Origin: Alphaproteobacteria bacterium | Lineage (GTDB): Bacteria > Pseudomonadota > Alphaproteobacteria > Thalassobaculales > Thalassobaculaceae | Direction of reading: 5' to 3' | Assembly: GCA_013203465.1 (NCBI GenBank) | Contig: JABMNR010000122.1 | Coordinates: forward strand, 1-36,862 | Length of the DNA: 36,862 bases | Shown: in pieces, positions 1 to 4,756 of the stretch | Layout: the number at the start of each line of letters is the position of its first letter | Position numbering within the stretch: position 1 is the stretch's first letter | Program-made: the position numbers and the translations under genes | The notes under the pieces: generated by a model | What the model was told of the DNA's origin: nothing | Database searches by the model: none | The model's input: only the letters and a program-made list of their open reading frames with translations

Positions 1-716
1 CCATTCCGCTGCTAACACGGTCTTCCTTGCATCGCTGTTTGCAGCGTCACGGCATCTCAAGGCTGCCTGATGTGGAAGGCGACAAGCCGACCAAAAAGAA
101 GTTCAAGCGCTACCCGATCGGTTACTTCCACATAGATATTGCCGAAGTGCGGACCGCCGAGGGCAAGCTGCACATGTTCGTCGCCATCGACCGGACATCG
201 AAATTTGCTTTCGTTGAACTGCATGAGAAGGCACCAACGCGGATTGCGGCCGCATTCCTGAACCGTCTGATCGACGCCGTTCCCTACAAAATCCACACCG
301 TGCTCACCGACAACGGCATCCAGTTCACAACACCCGGCGCGGGGGGCTCAGCCGTTCCTCTTATTAGGGAAGCCATGGCCAAGGGCGAGCTGTTCCGTGC
401 CCATGCCTTCGAATATGCCTGTGCCAAGGCCGACATCGATCACCGCACGACAAAGCCCAAGCACCCTTGGACCAATGGGCAAGTCGAACGAATGAATCGC
501 ACGATTAAGGACGCCACCGTCAAACGCTTCCACTATGACGATCATGACCAGTTGCGGAGACACCTTGATGACTTCGTCGCGGCCTACAATTACGGCCGCA
601 GGCTGAAGACCCTCAAAGGGCTCACGCCCTACGAATTCATCTGCAAACAATGGACAATCGAACCACAAAGATTCAAACTCGATCCAATCCATCAAAACCT
701 GGGACCAAACATCTAA
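1..716 (+). mobile_element. Right-hand part of an IS481-family insertion sequence
   Basis: The element is represented by its transposase. The exact right end is not proven. The sequence ending at about 711 (GGGACCAAACA) would fit the TGT...ACA termini common in this family, in which case the transposase stop codon lies partly in flanking DNA. The left inverted repeat is outside the window, so the pair cannot be compared. The insertion falls in the short gap beyond the eipB stop codon. Confidence 0.65.
3..716 (+). CDS. IS481-family transposase, 5'-truncated by the window edge
   Basis: DDE integrase-type transposase that moves its own insertion sequence. The frame is open to the left edge, and the residues before the first possible start (TTG at 27) still look like family sequence (TRSSLHRCLQRHGISRLP), so the N-terminal helix-turn-helix part lies outside the window. 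The visible part is an rve catalytic core: first Asp in HIDIAEV, second Asp in LTDNG, and Glu in QVERMNR, followed by the usual C-terminal NYGRRLKTLKGLTPYEF segment. All three catalytic residues are present and there is no internal stop, so the visible part looks intact. It ends 26 bases before the stop codon of the convergent eipB gene. Family assignment is from motif recognition only. Confidence 0.9.
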   Translation: MPLLTRSSLHRCLQRHGISRLPDVEGDKPTKKKFKRYPIGYFHIDIAEVRTAEGKLHMFVAIDRTSKFAFVELHEKAPTRIAAAFLNRLIDAVPYKIHTVLTDNGIQFTTPGAGGSAVPLIREAMAKGELFRAHAFEYACAKADIDHRTTKPKHPWTNGQVERMNRTIKDATVKRFHYDDHDQLRRHLDDFVAAYNYGRRLKTLKGLTPYEFICKQWTIEPQRFKLDPIHQNLGPNI

Positions 717-742
717 ATGGCTCGTATTTCTCACGATCTGCT

Positions 743-1564
743 CTAGTTTTTGCGCGCGCAGGCCGGTGAGTCGACCACCTCAATCTGCTCCAGGGTCAGC
801 CGCGCCGAAAAGTCGCCGTAGTCCAGCACTAGGTTACGCGCCACCCCGTTCGCCATCAGCTCGATCGACATCTCGAAATCCGGCGCCTGGCCTGACGCTC
901 CCGGTTTGAAGAACGCGAGCCGAATTGGCCAAAATGGTCCCGTCACGGCGGCATGATCGAGCGGTGGCGCGCCCTCCCTCGCCTTACCGATGACAGCCGA
1001 TATCAGCGCGTCGCCCTCGACCTCGCTGCCATCGAAAACATTGGCGCGGAAGAACCGCTCACCGGTGAGGGCCGCGCGGATCAGACGCAACGTGTGTTCG
1101 GTCGGAAAGATCGCTTCCTTGGACAACGAAATGTGCTGTTTCTCAGGTTTAACGAACGCGGCGGTACCACCCGTCGGCGGCTCCAAGGTCGCGCGGCCTT
1201 CAAGTCGCTGCTTACCACCATTACGACTCCTATCGACCAAGAACCGATACACCGCGCCATCCTTGGACTCCCAAGTCGTGAACTGCGAGCGCATGGCGAA
1301 CCCGTCACCATCGGCACGAGAGAAATCCATCAGATAACGTTGCTCGACCGCCCACCCATCGCAATCGTCGCGCCATTCGAAGGCCATCTTGCCTTGGACA
1401 CCGATCACCTCGGAAGCCGAGGAGCTCTGTTCCATGGATACGGCGTACAGCGCCCGATGCGGCAGAATATCGACCGCGACCGGGCCGGCCGCCATGGCCC
1501 CCGAACTCGACACTATGCAGCAGGCAACTCCCAAGGCCGGCACCATCCAGCGTAATCCTCGCAT
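743..1564 (-). CDS. eipB: EipB-like periplasmic cell-envelope integrity protein (DUF1849)
   Basis: Predicted exported beta-sheet protein of the DUF1849/EipB family, which supports envelope integrity in alphaproteobacteria. The chosen ATG at 1564 is preceded by GGAGG with a 5-base spacer; the GTG two codons upstream would sit directly against that site. The 273-residue product has a signal peptide (about residues 1-26), the family motif LPHRALY (34-40), and only two cysteines in the mature part: C68 (DDCDGW) and C269 (SPACARKN). Their position matches the disulfide described for Brucella EipB (known from the family, recalled). The C-terminal cysteine lies five residues from the end, so the IS to its left appears not to have clipped the gene. 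It diverges from the diguanylate cyclase gene. Confidence 0.85.
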   Translation of the reverse strand: MRGLRWMVPALGVACCIVSSSGAMAAGPVAVDILPHRALYAVSMEQSSSASEVIGVQGKMAFEWRDDCDGWAVEQRYLMDFSRADGDGFAMRSQFTTWESKDGAVYRFLVDRSRNGGKQRLEGRATLEPPTGGTAAFVKPEKQHISLSKEAIFPTEHTLRLIRAALTGERFFRANVFDGSEVEGDALISAVIGKAREGAPPLDHAAVTGPFWPIRLAFFKPGASGQAPDFEMSIELMANGVARNLVLDYGDFSARLTLEQIEVVDSPACARKN

Positions 1565-1657
1565 GCTCACCTCCGTTGATCCCTATTCAAGTATCGCAGA
1601 CCTTTGGAGACAGCGTGAGTCCCGCTCCCATCCTCTCGACCGCCGCTGCCGACCGCT

Positions 1658-1672
1658 CGGCAAAATTTGCCG
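1658..1672. promoter_or_regulatory. Perfect palindrome CGGCAAA-A-TTTGCCG, candidate activator site
   Basis: Seven-base arms around one central base, perfectly symmetrical. Its centre lies about 123 bases upstream of the start predicted from the sigma-54 promoter at 1761-1777, the usual distance for an enhancer-binding protein. The pattern resembles the Caulobacter flagellar ftr element bound by FlbD (CGGC--AAA--GC-G as I recall it), with one mismatch. That assignment is inference. Confidence 0.45.
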
Positions 1673-1760
1673 CTTTACCCATCAAAATCGGGATTGAGCG
1701 CGACGGTCCACGGTAGCCGCCTGAAAATGAAGGGAAATATGACCAGAACCGTGGCACGGG

Positions 1761-1777
1761 TTGGCACGGGCGTTGCT
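1761..1777 (+). promoter_or_regulatory. Sigma-54 (RpoN) -24/-12 promoter
   Basis: The sequence TTGGCACGGGCGTTGCT matches the sigma-54 consensus YTGGCACG-N4-TTGCW at every fixed position, with GG at 1763-1764 and GC at 1775-1776 separated by the required 10 bases. The expected transcription start is near 1788, giving a leader of about 24 bases that includes the GGAGAG ribosome binding site before the ATG at 1812. The TGGCACGGG half is duplicated immediately upstream. Confidence 0.7.
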
Positions 1778-1811
1778 TGTAACCGGCTGTACCCTTTCGG
1801 AGAGCCGGATC

Positions 1812-2543
1812 ATGGCGAACGATATTCTAGGCCAAACCGCACCACTCGACGGGCCCAGCGCGCGCCTCTATGCCGAGGTTACCGGCATGCTGGCCCGGTT
1901 CACTGGCGTGTTGGACGAGGATACCATCGCAAAGACGCCTGAGCTTGCCCGTGCGGAGACCGAGACCGCTTTGCGTATGGCCTTGATCGCGATGACCGAA
2001 GCCCAAAAACGGATCGAGCGGCAGCAATACCGCATCAACGAGCTGGAGAACCTGTCAATCACCGACGAGCTAACGTCTGTGATGAACCGTCGCGGCTTCC
2101 GTATGCAACTCAGTAAAGCCATGGCGCAAACGGCGCGACAGGGTGGCAGCGGGTTGGTGCTGATGATCGACCTGGACGGCTTCAAGGCAACCAACGATTC
2201 CCATGGCCATGCCGCCGGCGATGCCGTGCTACAGACGGTAGCCGGGGTGTTGGCTAACGATGTGCGGGCCAGCGACACGGTCGGCCGGCTTGGAGGCGAT
2301 GAATTTGCCGTGCTCATGCCTGATCTGGAAGCCTCAGACGGCGACGCCCGGGCGCAAGCTCTTTCACGCCGTCTAAACGGCCAGACGCTGTCCTGGAACG
2401 GCGCCATGTTGACGATTTACGCCAGCGTCGGCTGGGTCGCTTTCGGCGTTCTAGATCGGCCGGATGAGATTCTCGACCGGGCCGACCGTATGATGTATGC
2501 GCAAAAAGCCCAGCGCCGGCCGGCACTGGCGATGACGGCCTAG
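1812..2543 (+). CDS. Diguanylate cyclase with GGDEF domain
   Basis: Makes the second messenger cyclic di-GMP from two GTP. The start is the ATG at 1812, eight bases after GGAGAG, rather than the TTG at 1761, which overlaps the sigma-54 promoter. In the 243-residue product, residues 1-43 are not recognised, 44-85 look like a helical or coiled-coil linker, and 85-235 form the GGDEF domain. The active-site motif GGDEF is intact at 161-165, and an RxxD product-inhibition site (RASD, 152-155) lies exactly five residues before it, so the enzyme should be active and feedback-inhibited. There is no membrane segment, EAL domain or known sensor domain. Its stop codon shares the CTAG at 2540-2543 with the convergent lipoprotein gene. 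A flagellar or motility role is suggested by the promoter only. Confidence 0.92.
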   Translation: MANDILGQTAPLDGPSARLYAEVTGMLARFTGVLDEDTIAKTPELARAETETALRMALIAMTEAQKRIERQQYRINELENLSITDELTSVMNRRGFRMQLSKAMAQTARQGGSGLVLMIDLDGFKATNDSHGHAAGDAVLQTVAGVLANDVRASDTVGRLGGDEFAVLMPDLEASDGDARAQALSRRLNGQTLSWNGAMLTIYASVGWVAFGVLDRPDEILDRADRMMYAQKAQRRPALAMTA

Positions 2544-3385
2544 AGCTGGGCCAACAACGTCGGCGTGTGTAACTGGATGGTCCACGGGATCACCCCGTCC
2601 ACGGGGCCTAATCCACGCTTAATCAGCAGCGCCTCGCTTGCGGTGAACGGTCCCATCGCTACGCGATACCAATCGCGGCCCTCAACCGTTGCCGCCAGAA
2701 TTTTTGGCAATTGCGCGCCGTGACGGCCGGCCAGAACTTCGGCCCTGGCGATATCACGGAATGAGCCGATGATCACATACCGGCCGCTCTCCGCAAAAAG
2801 TGCCTCAGCCCTGACATCGTGCCCACGTACATCGCGCTCTTGAGCAATGATCTCAAGCTTTTGAAGCGGCGCGATCGCCACGCCGCCGGCCCGGCTTGGC
2901 GGTTGCCAATCACCGCTCGAGAACGCTACTGGAAGGCGACGCGTATCTGGCGATGGACGAACCACCCCCGACGTCACCGTCACGCCGTCGGCCTTGATCG
3001 TCGGCGCGGTGTTCGCGAATGGCAGGAAGATAGCGATCTGCGCTGGGCCGTGGTCTACTTTGTCCAGGTCAAGCGCACCGGTATTCAGCGCGGCTCGTTC
3101 CAACTGGCTCCAATCATCCTGGTCACCAGGGTAATAAGCCTCCACCACAGAAACGGTCGCCCCCTCGCCGTTCGGCCCAATCTCCCGGCATACCGGGTCA
3201 CCAAAAATCGGCCGAGTCAGCGCGCAATCTTTTTCGACCGTCGCGGAAAGCAAATGATCACTGGTCGACTTACCGCTCGCCATGTAGGAGATACCGGAGA
3301 GCGCCGTTGAAACAATTGAGATGGGCAAGGGGAGACAGCCACCGAGAAGCAGCGGCAGCGCTGCGACCGCTAAGATTGGCTTCAT
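2540..3385 (-). CDS. SPOR-domain lipoprotein
   Basis: Predicted outer-membrane or periplasmic lipoprotein of 281 residues. The N-terminus is a lipoprotein signal with lipobox LGGC, lipidated at C17. The middle (about 40-200) is not recognised. The C-terminal part (about 201-275) looks like a SPOR domain: GRYVIIGSFRDIARAE, then YRVAMGPF and ALLIKRGL, the repeat pattern that binds denuded peptidoglycan strands, often at the division site. No enzymatic domain is visible. The upstream region carries a cluster of GANTC sites and the inverted repeat TGAATCA/TGATTCA (3400-3406 and 3427-3433). The overall family is uncertain; the SPOR assignment is from pattern recognition. Confidence 0.75.
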   Translation of the reverse strand: MKPILAVAALPLLLGGCLPLPISIVSTALSGISYMASGKSTSDHLLSATVEKDCALTRPIFGDPVCREIGPNGEGATVSVVEAYYPGDQDDWSQLERAALNTGALDLDKVDHGPAQIAIFLPFANTAPTIKADGVTVTSGVVRPSPDTRRLPVAFSSGDWQPPSRAGGVAIAPLQKLEIIAQERDVRGHDVRAEALFAESGRYVIIGSFRDIARAEVLAGRHGAQLPKILAATVEGRDWYRVAMGPFTASEALLIKRGLGPVDGVIPWTIQLHTPTLLAQL

Positions 3386-3400
3386 CGTAAATCCCCCCGT

Positions 3401-3516
3401 GAATCAGTATCTTGCAGCGCGAATCGTGATTCATTTCTGAACATTAAGCAACCTTTGTATTTCAAACTTGGCGCAGGGTATTTGAGTCAAACGCACCACG
3501 ATACGAAAAACGAATC
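3401..3516. promoter_or_regulatory. Cluster of five GANTC (CcrM) methylation sites
   Basis: GANTC occurs at 3401-3405, 3421-3425, 3428-3432, 3484-3488 and 3512-3516, in the intergenic region between the SPOR lipoprotein (-) and rnd (+). In alphaproteobacteria GANTC is methylated by CcrM, and promoter clusters often mark genes under GcrA/CcrM cell-cycle control. The sites are seen directly; the regulatory role is inferred. Confidence 0.5.
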
Positions 3517-3545
3517 GGGTTTCAAGGACTTATGAGATAACGCGG

Positions 3546-3573
3546 TTGCGCCAATCGGACGCTCGTGTATACG
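3546..3573 (+). promoter_or_regulatory. Putative sigma-70 promoter of rnd
   Basis: TTGCGC (3546-3551), 16 bases, then TATACG (3568-3573). Only seven bases separate the -10 from the rnd ATG at 3581, so transcription could begin at or next to the start codon. The rpsF promoter has the same -35 and the same spacing. Confidence 0.4.
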
Positions 3574-3580
3574 GGCGCCT

Positions 3581-4756
3581 ATGACACTTGTCACCGATAC
3601 CGAGGCGCTGGCCGCCCTGTGCAGTCGAATCGCCGAGCAAGATGACTTCGTGGCTATCGATACGGAGTTCATGCGCGACAAGACTTTTTACTCGAAACTC
3701 TGCCTGGTCCAAGTCGCCGGTACCGAGGACGTCGCCGCGATCGACCCGCTGGCCCCGGGTCTGGATCTGGCGCCGCTGTACGCGCTGATGGCGAACGTGA
3801 ATGTGCTGAAGGTGTTCCACGCCGCGCGGCAGGACGTGGAGATATTCGTCAACCAGGCCGGCGCCGTGCCATACCCGCTCTTCGATACGCAGATCGCTGG
3901 CATGGTTTGCGGCTTCGGTGATTCGGTTAGTTACGACAAGCTGGTCCGCGCCATCACCGGCGTCCAGCTCGACAAAACCTCGCGCTTCACGGATTGGAGC
4001 CATCGCCCCCTCAGCGATCGACAGATCGACTACGCCTTGGCTGACGTGATCCACCTGCGCCCAGTCTACGATCAGCTGCGCAAGCAATTGCAGAAAACCG
4101 GGCGGTCCGAGTGGCTCGCCGAGGAGATGGCCCAAATGGTCGACCCCGGCACCTACCGGAACGATCCGGAGGAGTCCTGGCGGCGGCTTAAGATCCGCAG
4201 CACAAAACCAAAATTCCTAGTGGTGTTGCAGGTGCTCGCCGCATGGCGTGAACGCGAGGCCCAGAGCCGCGATGTCCCGCGCAATCGCATCCTGCGCGAC
4301 GACGCCTTAGTTGACGTTGCCGCCCAGGCTCCAACCTCGGCCGCCGAGTTAGCTCGAACCCGTGCGTTCAACAGCGAGTCGGCTGGTGGTCGGATCGGCC
4401 GCTCGGTGCTGGACGCGGTGGCAAAGGCGTTATCCCTTCCCAAAGAGGACTGGCCCAACCTGCCGGAACCCAAGGACGCGCCACAGGGCCGTATGCCGGT
4501 CGCCGAGCTTCTCCGCGTACTGTTGAAGGTAAAATGCGAGGAGCACGACGTAGCACCGAAACTGGTCGCTTCGGCGGAAGACTTGGACGCGATCGCCTCG
4601 GATGATCACGCCAACGTTCGCGCTCTTGAGGGTTGGCGCCGTCAGGTTTTCGGGGACGCCGCGTTGGCGGTCAAACACGGTCGGCTCGCCATGGGCTACG
4701 ATCCGAAACGCAACAGGGTAGACCTCGTCGAAATCGACGTCGATCCGGCCGATTAG
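3581..4756 (+). CDS. rnd: Ribonuclease D
   Basis: 3'-to-5' exoribonuclease that trims tRNA and other stable RNA precursors in the cytoplasm. The 391-residue product has the DEDD exonuclease domain in the first ~200 residues: D27 and E29 (AIDTEF), D85 (AARQD), and Y151 with D155 in YALAD, all metal-binding or catalytic positions of the DEDDy class. An HRDC domain follows at about 210-290, with a second helical region to the end, as in the full-length family. The ATG at 3581 has no clear ribosome binding site and lies just after a promoter-like sequence. The gene converges on ppx with a 4-base overlap. The neighbourhood rnd-ppx-ppk-hdaA is common in alphaproteobacteria. Confidence 0.95.
   Translation: MTLVTDTEALAALCSRIAEQDDFVAIDTEFMRDKTFYSKLCLVQVAGTEDVAAIDPLAPGLDLAPLYALMANVNVLKVFHAARQDVEIFVNQAGAVPYPLFDTQIAGMVCGFGDSVSYDKLVRAITGVQLDKTSRFTDWSHRPLSDRQIDYALADVIHLRPVYDQLRKQLQKTGRSEWLAEEMAQMVDPGTYRNDPEESWRRLKIRSTKPKFLVVLQVLAAWREREAQSRDVPRNRILRDDALVDVAAQAPTSAAELARTRAFNSESAGGRIGRSVLDAVAKALSLPKEDWPNLPEPKDAPQGRMPVAELLRVLLKVKCEEHDVAPKLVASAEDLDAIASDDHANVRALEGWRRQVFGDAALAVKHGRLAMGYDPKRNRVDLVEIDVDPAD

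Follow-up and report, generated by a model that had tools for sequence, protein, structure and literature searches.

A predicted diguanylate cyclase gene shares its sigma-54 promoter architecture with late flagellar genes in the Thalassobaculales

Introduction

Flagellar construction and cyclic di-GMP synthesis tend to be viewed as opposing programmes. Why, then, would a gene for a cyclic di-GMP-producing enzyme lie behind a promoter of the type used by late flagellar genes, and which activator would open it? We asked this question for a locus in a 36,862-nucleotide stretch of an alphaproteobacterial draft genome of the order Thalassobaculales (contig JABMNR010000122.1), hereafter called the window. 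A sequence-only reading of this locus had noted a full −24/−12 sigma-54 promoter match, a perfect palindrome upstream of it and a GGDEF protein with an intact RxxD inhibition site, and had suggested that cyclic di-GMP production is tied here to a sigma-54 programme, possibly the flagellar FlbD regulon.

Results

The cyclase gene and its surroundings

The features of the locus are the following (window positions).

743-1570, minus strand: gene for an EipB-like protein, divergent neighbour; the gap between the two genes holds the promoter
1658-1672, no strand: ftr-like perfect palindrome CGGCAAAATTTGCCG, a putative UAS (enhancer) at which a sigma-54 activator would bind; exact and conserved in part
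1762-1777, plus strand: −24/−12 sigma-54 promoter, TGGCACG-GGCG-TTGCT; exact match, conserved among orthologues
1788, plus strand: predicted transcription start, about 12 nt past the −12 GC, placed by sigma-54 promoter geometry
1812-2543, plus strand: gene for a soluble, predicted diguanylate cyclase of 243 aa (Pfam GGDEF, E = 7.9e-38)
2540-3385, minus strand: gene for a SPOR-domain protein (domain match), convergent neighbour

The reading frame of the cyclase begins with the ATG at 1812 and its stop ends at 2543. The N-terminal part of the protein (about residues 1-80) had no Pfam match. The active-site GGDEF occupies residues 161-165 and the I-site RxxD corresponds to R152xxD155, both motifs being invariant or almost so in the ten homologues compared. 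With GG(D/E)EF and RxxD both present, the protein has the sequence features of an active diguanylate cyclase and is predicted to be one, as the sequence-only reading had proposed. At the left end of the window an integrase-core transposase gene (3-716, plus strand) runs off the contig, whose break lies in or beside an insertion sequence. The last part of the cyclase gene contains a terminator-like hairpin (2510-2529, minus strand), at a position that would suit the convergent SPOR-domain gene, and no Rfam family was found in the window.

The sigma-54 box is conserved among orthologues

The box TTGGCACGGGCGTTGCT was recovered exactly at 1761-1777, the positions first reported for it, with the −24 GG and the −12 GC at the fixed spacing of a sigma-54-dependent promoter (TGGCACG-N4-TTGCT). 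By consensus alone, such a box is not above chance in a single genome. Exact TGGCACGN4TTGCW has five sites genome-wide, this one among them, the looser TGGCAYRN4TTGCW has six against five for the reversed pattern, and at least one match with at most one mismatch appeared in 60 of 100 shuffles of the window. We judge the box to be real because it is conserved across orthologues, and not because of these counts. The cyclase was found in 25 of the 36 genomes of the window's order that we searched, and all 25 orthologues, which span nine genera, keep the −24/−12 box at 10 to 12 of its 12 bases, 47-82 nt 5′ of the inferred start; for each of them, a shuffled sequence equalled the box score with P between 0 and 0.027. 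Among 12 more distant homologues from other Alphaproteobacteria, ten have a clear box (for example TGGCACGTCCATTGCA in L036, TGGCACGGGGTTTGCA in L039 and TGGCATGGCGATTGCT in L042). The upstream region of L043 is without a sigma-54 box, and in L047 the sole box has one mismatch and lies 330 nt ahead of the matched region. Around the box, the window carries a tandem double TGGCACGGG (CGTGGCACGGGTTGGCACGGG) at 1753-1770, in which the −24 element is repeated 10 nt upstream with no matching −12.

The palindrome is unique in the genome, partly conserved and paired with the box

The palindrome CGGCAAAATTTGCCG was likewise confirmed letter for letter; it lies about 91 nt further upstream than the box and occurs only once in the 4.48 Mb genome. 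Like the box, it gains no support from consensus counts within this single genome. Its core GGCARNNNYTGCC is found upstream of the box in 9 of the 25 orthologues, against 0.02 expected. It is missing or degenerate in the remaining 16, especially in AT-rich genera with small genomes, most of whose genomes nevertheless contain flhA, and one genus preserves little beyond the left half (CGGCAAG). Two of the distant homologues (L038 and L039) have two copies of GGCARNNNYTGCC apiece and a further one (L044) has a single copy. Genome-wide, exact CGGCARNNNYTGCCG showed no overall enrichment over the reversed control; the element is enriched only in combination with a sigma-54 box and by its placement in flagellar regions. 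Among the other palindrome sites that we inspected in the window's own genome, none had a sigma-54 box close by. We take the palindrome to resemble the Caulobacter ftr element, as the sequence-only reading suggested; on our data the likeness is one of position and genomic company rather than of compared consensus.

A promoter architecture common to flagellar and cyclic di-GMP genes

We then scanned the 36 genomes for the composite architecture, that is GGCARNNNYTGCC followed after 50-110 nt by GGCNYRN4TTGCW, and obtained 28 matches against one with the reversed pattern. The window's own genome has exactly three, which precede fliK (contig C89), the cyclase gene and a gene for a PilZ-domain protein of 116 aa (contig C197; PF07238, E = 1.4e-5, above the family cut-off). 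In the relatives, the matches precede PilZ, cyclase, fliK and fliL genes together with a few uncharacterised genes. The palindrome is thus an element common to late flagellar sigma-54 promoters, as in an FlbD (ftr) regulon, and the proposed search for it at sigma-54 flagellar operons gave a positive answer (fliK, fliL and sites in flagellar clusters). In the 56-kb flagellar region of the relative G015 we counted six palindromes against 0.33 expected, and exact CGGCARNNNYTGCCG is also present within the flagellar clusters of G013, G027, G028 and G029, one copy preceding a flagellin gene. At the flgB promoters, which are flagellar and sigma-54-like, the palindrome was not at the expected place, and most of the sigma-54 boxes that we checked for it, those of flgB and nutrient genes, were without.

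The cyclase gene co-occurs with flhA: among genomes at least 90% complete it is present in 13 of 13 with flhA and in three of seven without (hypergeometric p about 0.007, calculated by hand; kinship is ignored here and in our other counts). In the flhA-bearing relatives a third sigma-54 activator directly adjoins flhA, and in G015 this protein scores 779.9 with the NCBIfam FlbD model (cut-off 750). The regulon is assigned to FlbD because every relative that is at least 90% complete and carries flhA has FlbD beside it. Judged from these sequences, the cyclase and the PilZ receptor belong to a sigma-54 flagellar regulon, almost certainly that of FlbD. The relatives that share the promoter encode an FlbD-type activator, with the exception of G029, which has a perfect palindrome site yet neither flbD nor flhA; the link between palindrome and FlbD is therefore one of association. 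On contig C65 of G029 (L262, L263) a transposase lies between flgH and flgI, and the contig ends at a second flagellin gene.

The flbD-flhA segment is missing from the window's own genome

Neither a third activator (flbD) nor flhA was found in the genome to which the window belongs; FliX, the partner of FlbD, is still encoded there. Two contigs, C150 and C200, show synteny to the initial portion of the G015 flagellar cluster. On C89 the order is fliK, transposase, fliI and a ctrA-like response regulator gene, and in positions 570-4348 of this contig (L259) a truncated fliK and a truncated fliI lie to either side of a two-ORF transposase. The fliK similarity ends at the insertion sequence, with the Flg_hook domain of G015 FliK absent, and on the other side of the transposase fliI breaks off at residue 241 of 472. 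The junction lies just where the relatives have flgD-flgE-fliF...flbD-flhA-flhG. Between its fliK and fliI genes, G015 has flgD, flgE, fliF, flbD, flhA, flhF and flhG (names read from the sequences by eye, except flbD and flhA). No second copy of the C89 insertion sequence was seen among the stretches of this genome that we examined. The simplest reading of the junction would be an insertion sequence-associated deletion of flbD, flhA and neighbouring flagellar genes; it could also be a misassembly. Given the absence of flbD and flhA together with the fliK-fliI junction, the promoter in this genome is probably an orphaned relic without its usual activator.

These results divide the earlier suggestion of a cyclic di-GMP gene tied to an FlbD-type flagellar programme. 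It is well supported for the family, in which the regulon is shared, and does not carry over to the window's own genome, where flbD and flhA are lacking. This absence, the insertion sequence junction and the presence of a PilZ receptor gene in the same regulon had not been foreseen.

Discussion

We consider it probable that the cyclase gene is a late flagellar-class gene under an FlbD-type switch whose activator has been deleted in the window's own genome. Sigma-54 activators contact the polymerase by looping and use ATP hydrolysis. In the scenario that we propose, sigma-54 RNA polymerase would wait at 1762-1777 until an activator bound to the palindrome loops to it and opens the promoter by hydrolysing ATP. 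In the relatives this activator would most likely be FlbD, whose binding, activation and timing we infer, and which FliX would hold back until assembly of the flagellar base is finished, a restraint described for FliX and FlbD (PMC3930126, PMC3096577). The cyclase and the co-regulated PilZ receptor would then be made alongside the hook-stage flagellar proteins, as late flagellar products. A deletion associated with an insertion sequence would, in the window's own genome, have taken flbD, flhA and their neighbours and left the promoter and the enzyme gene intact. A more specific version, which we put forward tentatively and regard as somewhat more doubtful than not, is that the FliX/FlbD checkpoint yields the cyclase and the PilZ protein as an assembly-gated pulse of cyclic di-GMP, and that in this lineage the checkpoint gene was lost through the insertion sequence, the promoter being orphaned or captured by NtrC.

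Several other explanations deserve attention. A chance origin of box and palindrome, with the cyclase gene read from a different promoter, is hardly credible: the single-genome consensus count does equal its control, but the comparative data contradict this reading, with a box kept in every orthologue at a nearly fixed position and an excess of composite sites over the reversed pattern, and positions 1500-2700 of the window yielded no sigma-70-like promoter. A different objection is that the organism does possess FlbD, its contig being absent from the assembly (unbinned) or misjoined, so that the promoter is fully active. We find this unlikely, although it has points in its favour, since the assembly is a draft of 238 contigs, the adjacency of flbD and flhA means that one lost contig would remove both, and C200 stops before flgK and flgL, which are likewise unaccounted for on the contigs that we read. 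However, a lost contig alone would not truncate both fliK and fliI precisely at the same insertion sequence of a single contig, and the reported completeness is 100%.

The remaining candidates are the activators that the genome does encode. It has one rpoN (RpoN, E = 5.6e-18), and the search of it found no clear sigma-54 activator other than NtrC and NtrX; NtrC keeps the GAFTGA motif and NtrX has lost it, which leaves NtrC as the sole GAFTGA activator. With the sigma-54 box intact, NtrC might drive the promoter, and cyclic di-GMP production would then follow nitrogen status. This appears improbable. The palindrome is common to the fliK and PilZ genes and not to the nutrient-like sigma-54 promoters of the relatives (for example those of urea or dipeptide transporter genes), the cyclase gene co-occurs with flhA, and the palindrome looks unlike an NtrC site, TGCACC-N5-GGTGCA. 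Basal activation by NtrC may nonetheless occur in the window's own genome. Binding of the palindrome by NtrX, possibly as a repressor of the cyclase gene, is more improbable still. The window palindrome does contain CAA-N3-TTG, in agreement with the motif CAAN3-5TTG reported for NtrX of Brucella and Sinorhizobium (PMC9223101), and NtrX is encoded in this genome; but the core of the family is GGCARNNNYTGCC, several sites are without CAA or TTG (for example GGCAGTCTCTGCC), and the sites are associated with genes for the flagellum and for cyclic di-GMP. The loss of an FlbD-type activator from an otherwise intact late flagellar-class promoter remains our preferred explanation.

The closest known system is the FlbD/FliX ftr regulon of Caulobacter (PMC3930126, PMC3096577), with which the present one has in common sigma-54 promoters of fliK, fliL and other flagellar genes that share a palindrome, an FlbD gene adjoining flhA in the window's relatives, and an encoded FliX. 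It differs in that its members include a diguanylate cyclase gene and the gene for a PilZ protein, that flbD was not found in the window's own genome, and that the FlbD site is putative here. In Caulobacter, a GGDEF cyclase is also coupled to the flagellum: DgcB is a stator-associated diguanylate cyclase that acts in flagellar surface signalling (PMC7885107). Its coupling is a physical association with the stator, whereas the link described here is transcriptional, and we liken the two with no claim of orthology. Pseudomonas, too, expresses a PilZ receptor gene, flgZ, within a flagellar regulon; flgZ depends on FleQ and FliA and lies in an flgMN operon (PMC3913639), in contrast to the stand-alone sigma-54 architecture that the PilZ gene has in common with the cyclase gene here. 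In Bradyrhizobium, FlbD-FliX controls both flagella and exopolysaccharide (Dardis 2021, cited in PMC8921679), so that FlbD affects a trait usually under cyclic di-GMP; the passage on that work in PMC8921679 names no cyclase target.

One promoter architecture serves hook-stage genes, a diguanylate cyclase gene and a candidate cyclic di-GMP receptor gene in several genera, and this makes it directly testable when, in relation to the assembly of the flagellum, the signal is produced. The window's own genome resembles a natural experiment, with the activator lost and the target promoters retained.

Other occurrences of the palindrome and the box

Three genera (L231, L235, L237) keep an exact palindrome between fliE and fliQ, about 1.4 kb within the flgB operon and with no sigma-54 box near. 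In two genera (L239, L240, L244), the palindrome is found between a membrane desaturase-like gene and an MSDxxx... gene, with no obvious sigma-54 box. An uncharacterised protein (..FxDxxDxxNPLQHxPVxxTLYRxLTGDT..) is encoded behind a sigma-54 box in L184, L186 and L283, and the palindrome is present in L184 and L283. In several genera (L194, L195, L209), a sigma-54 box precedes the gene for a small, uncharacterised conserved protein (MRHLPKFSDDYG...), and in the window's own genome this box is at C68:16456-16471 (L002).
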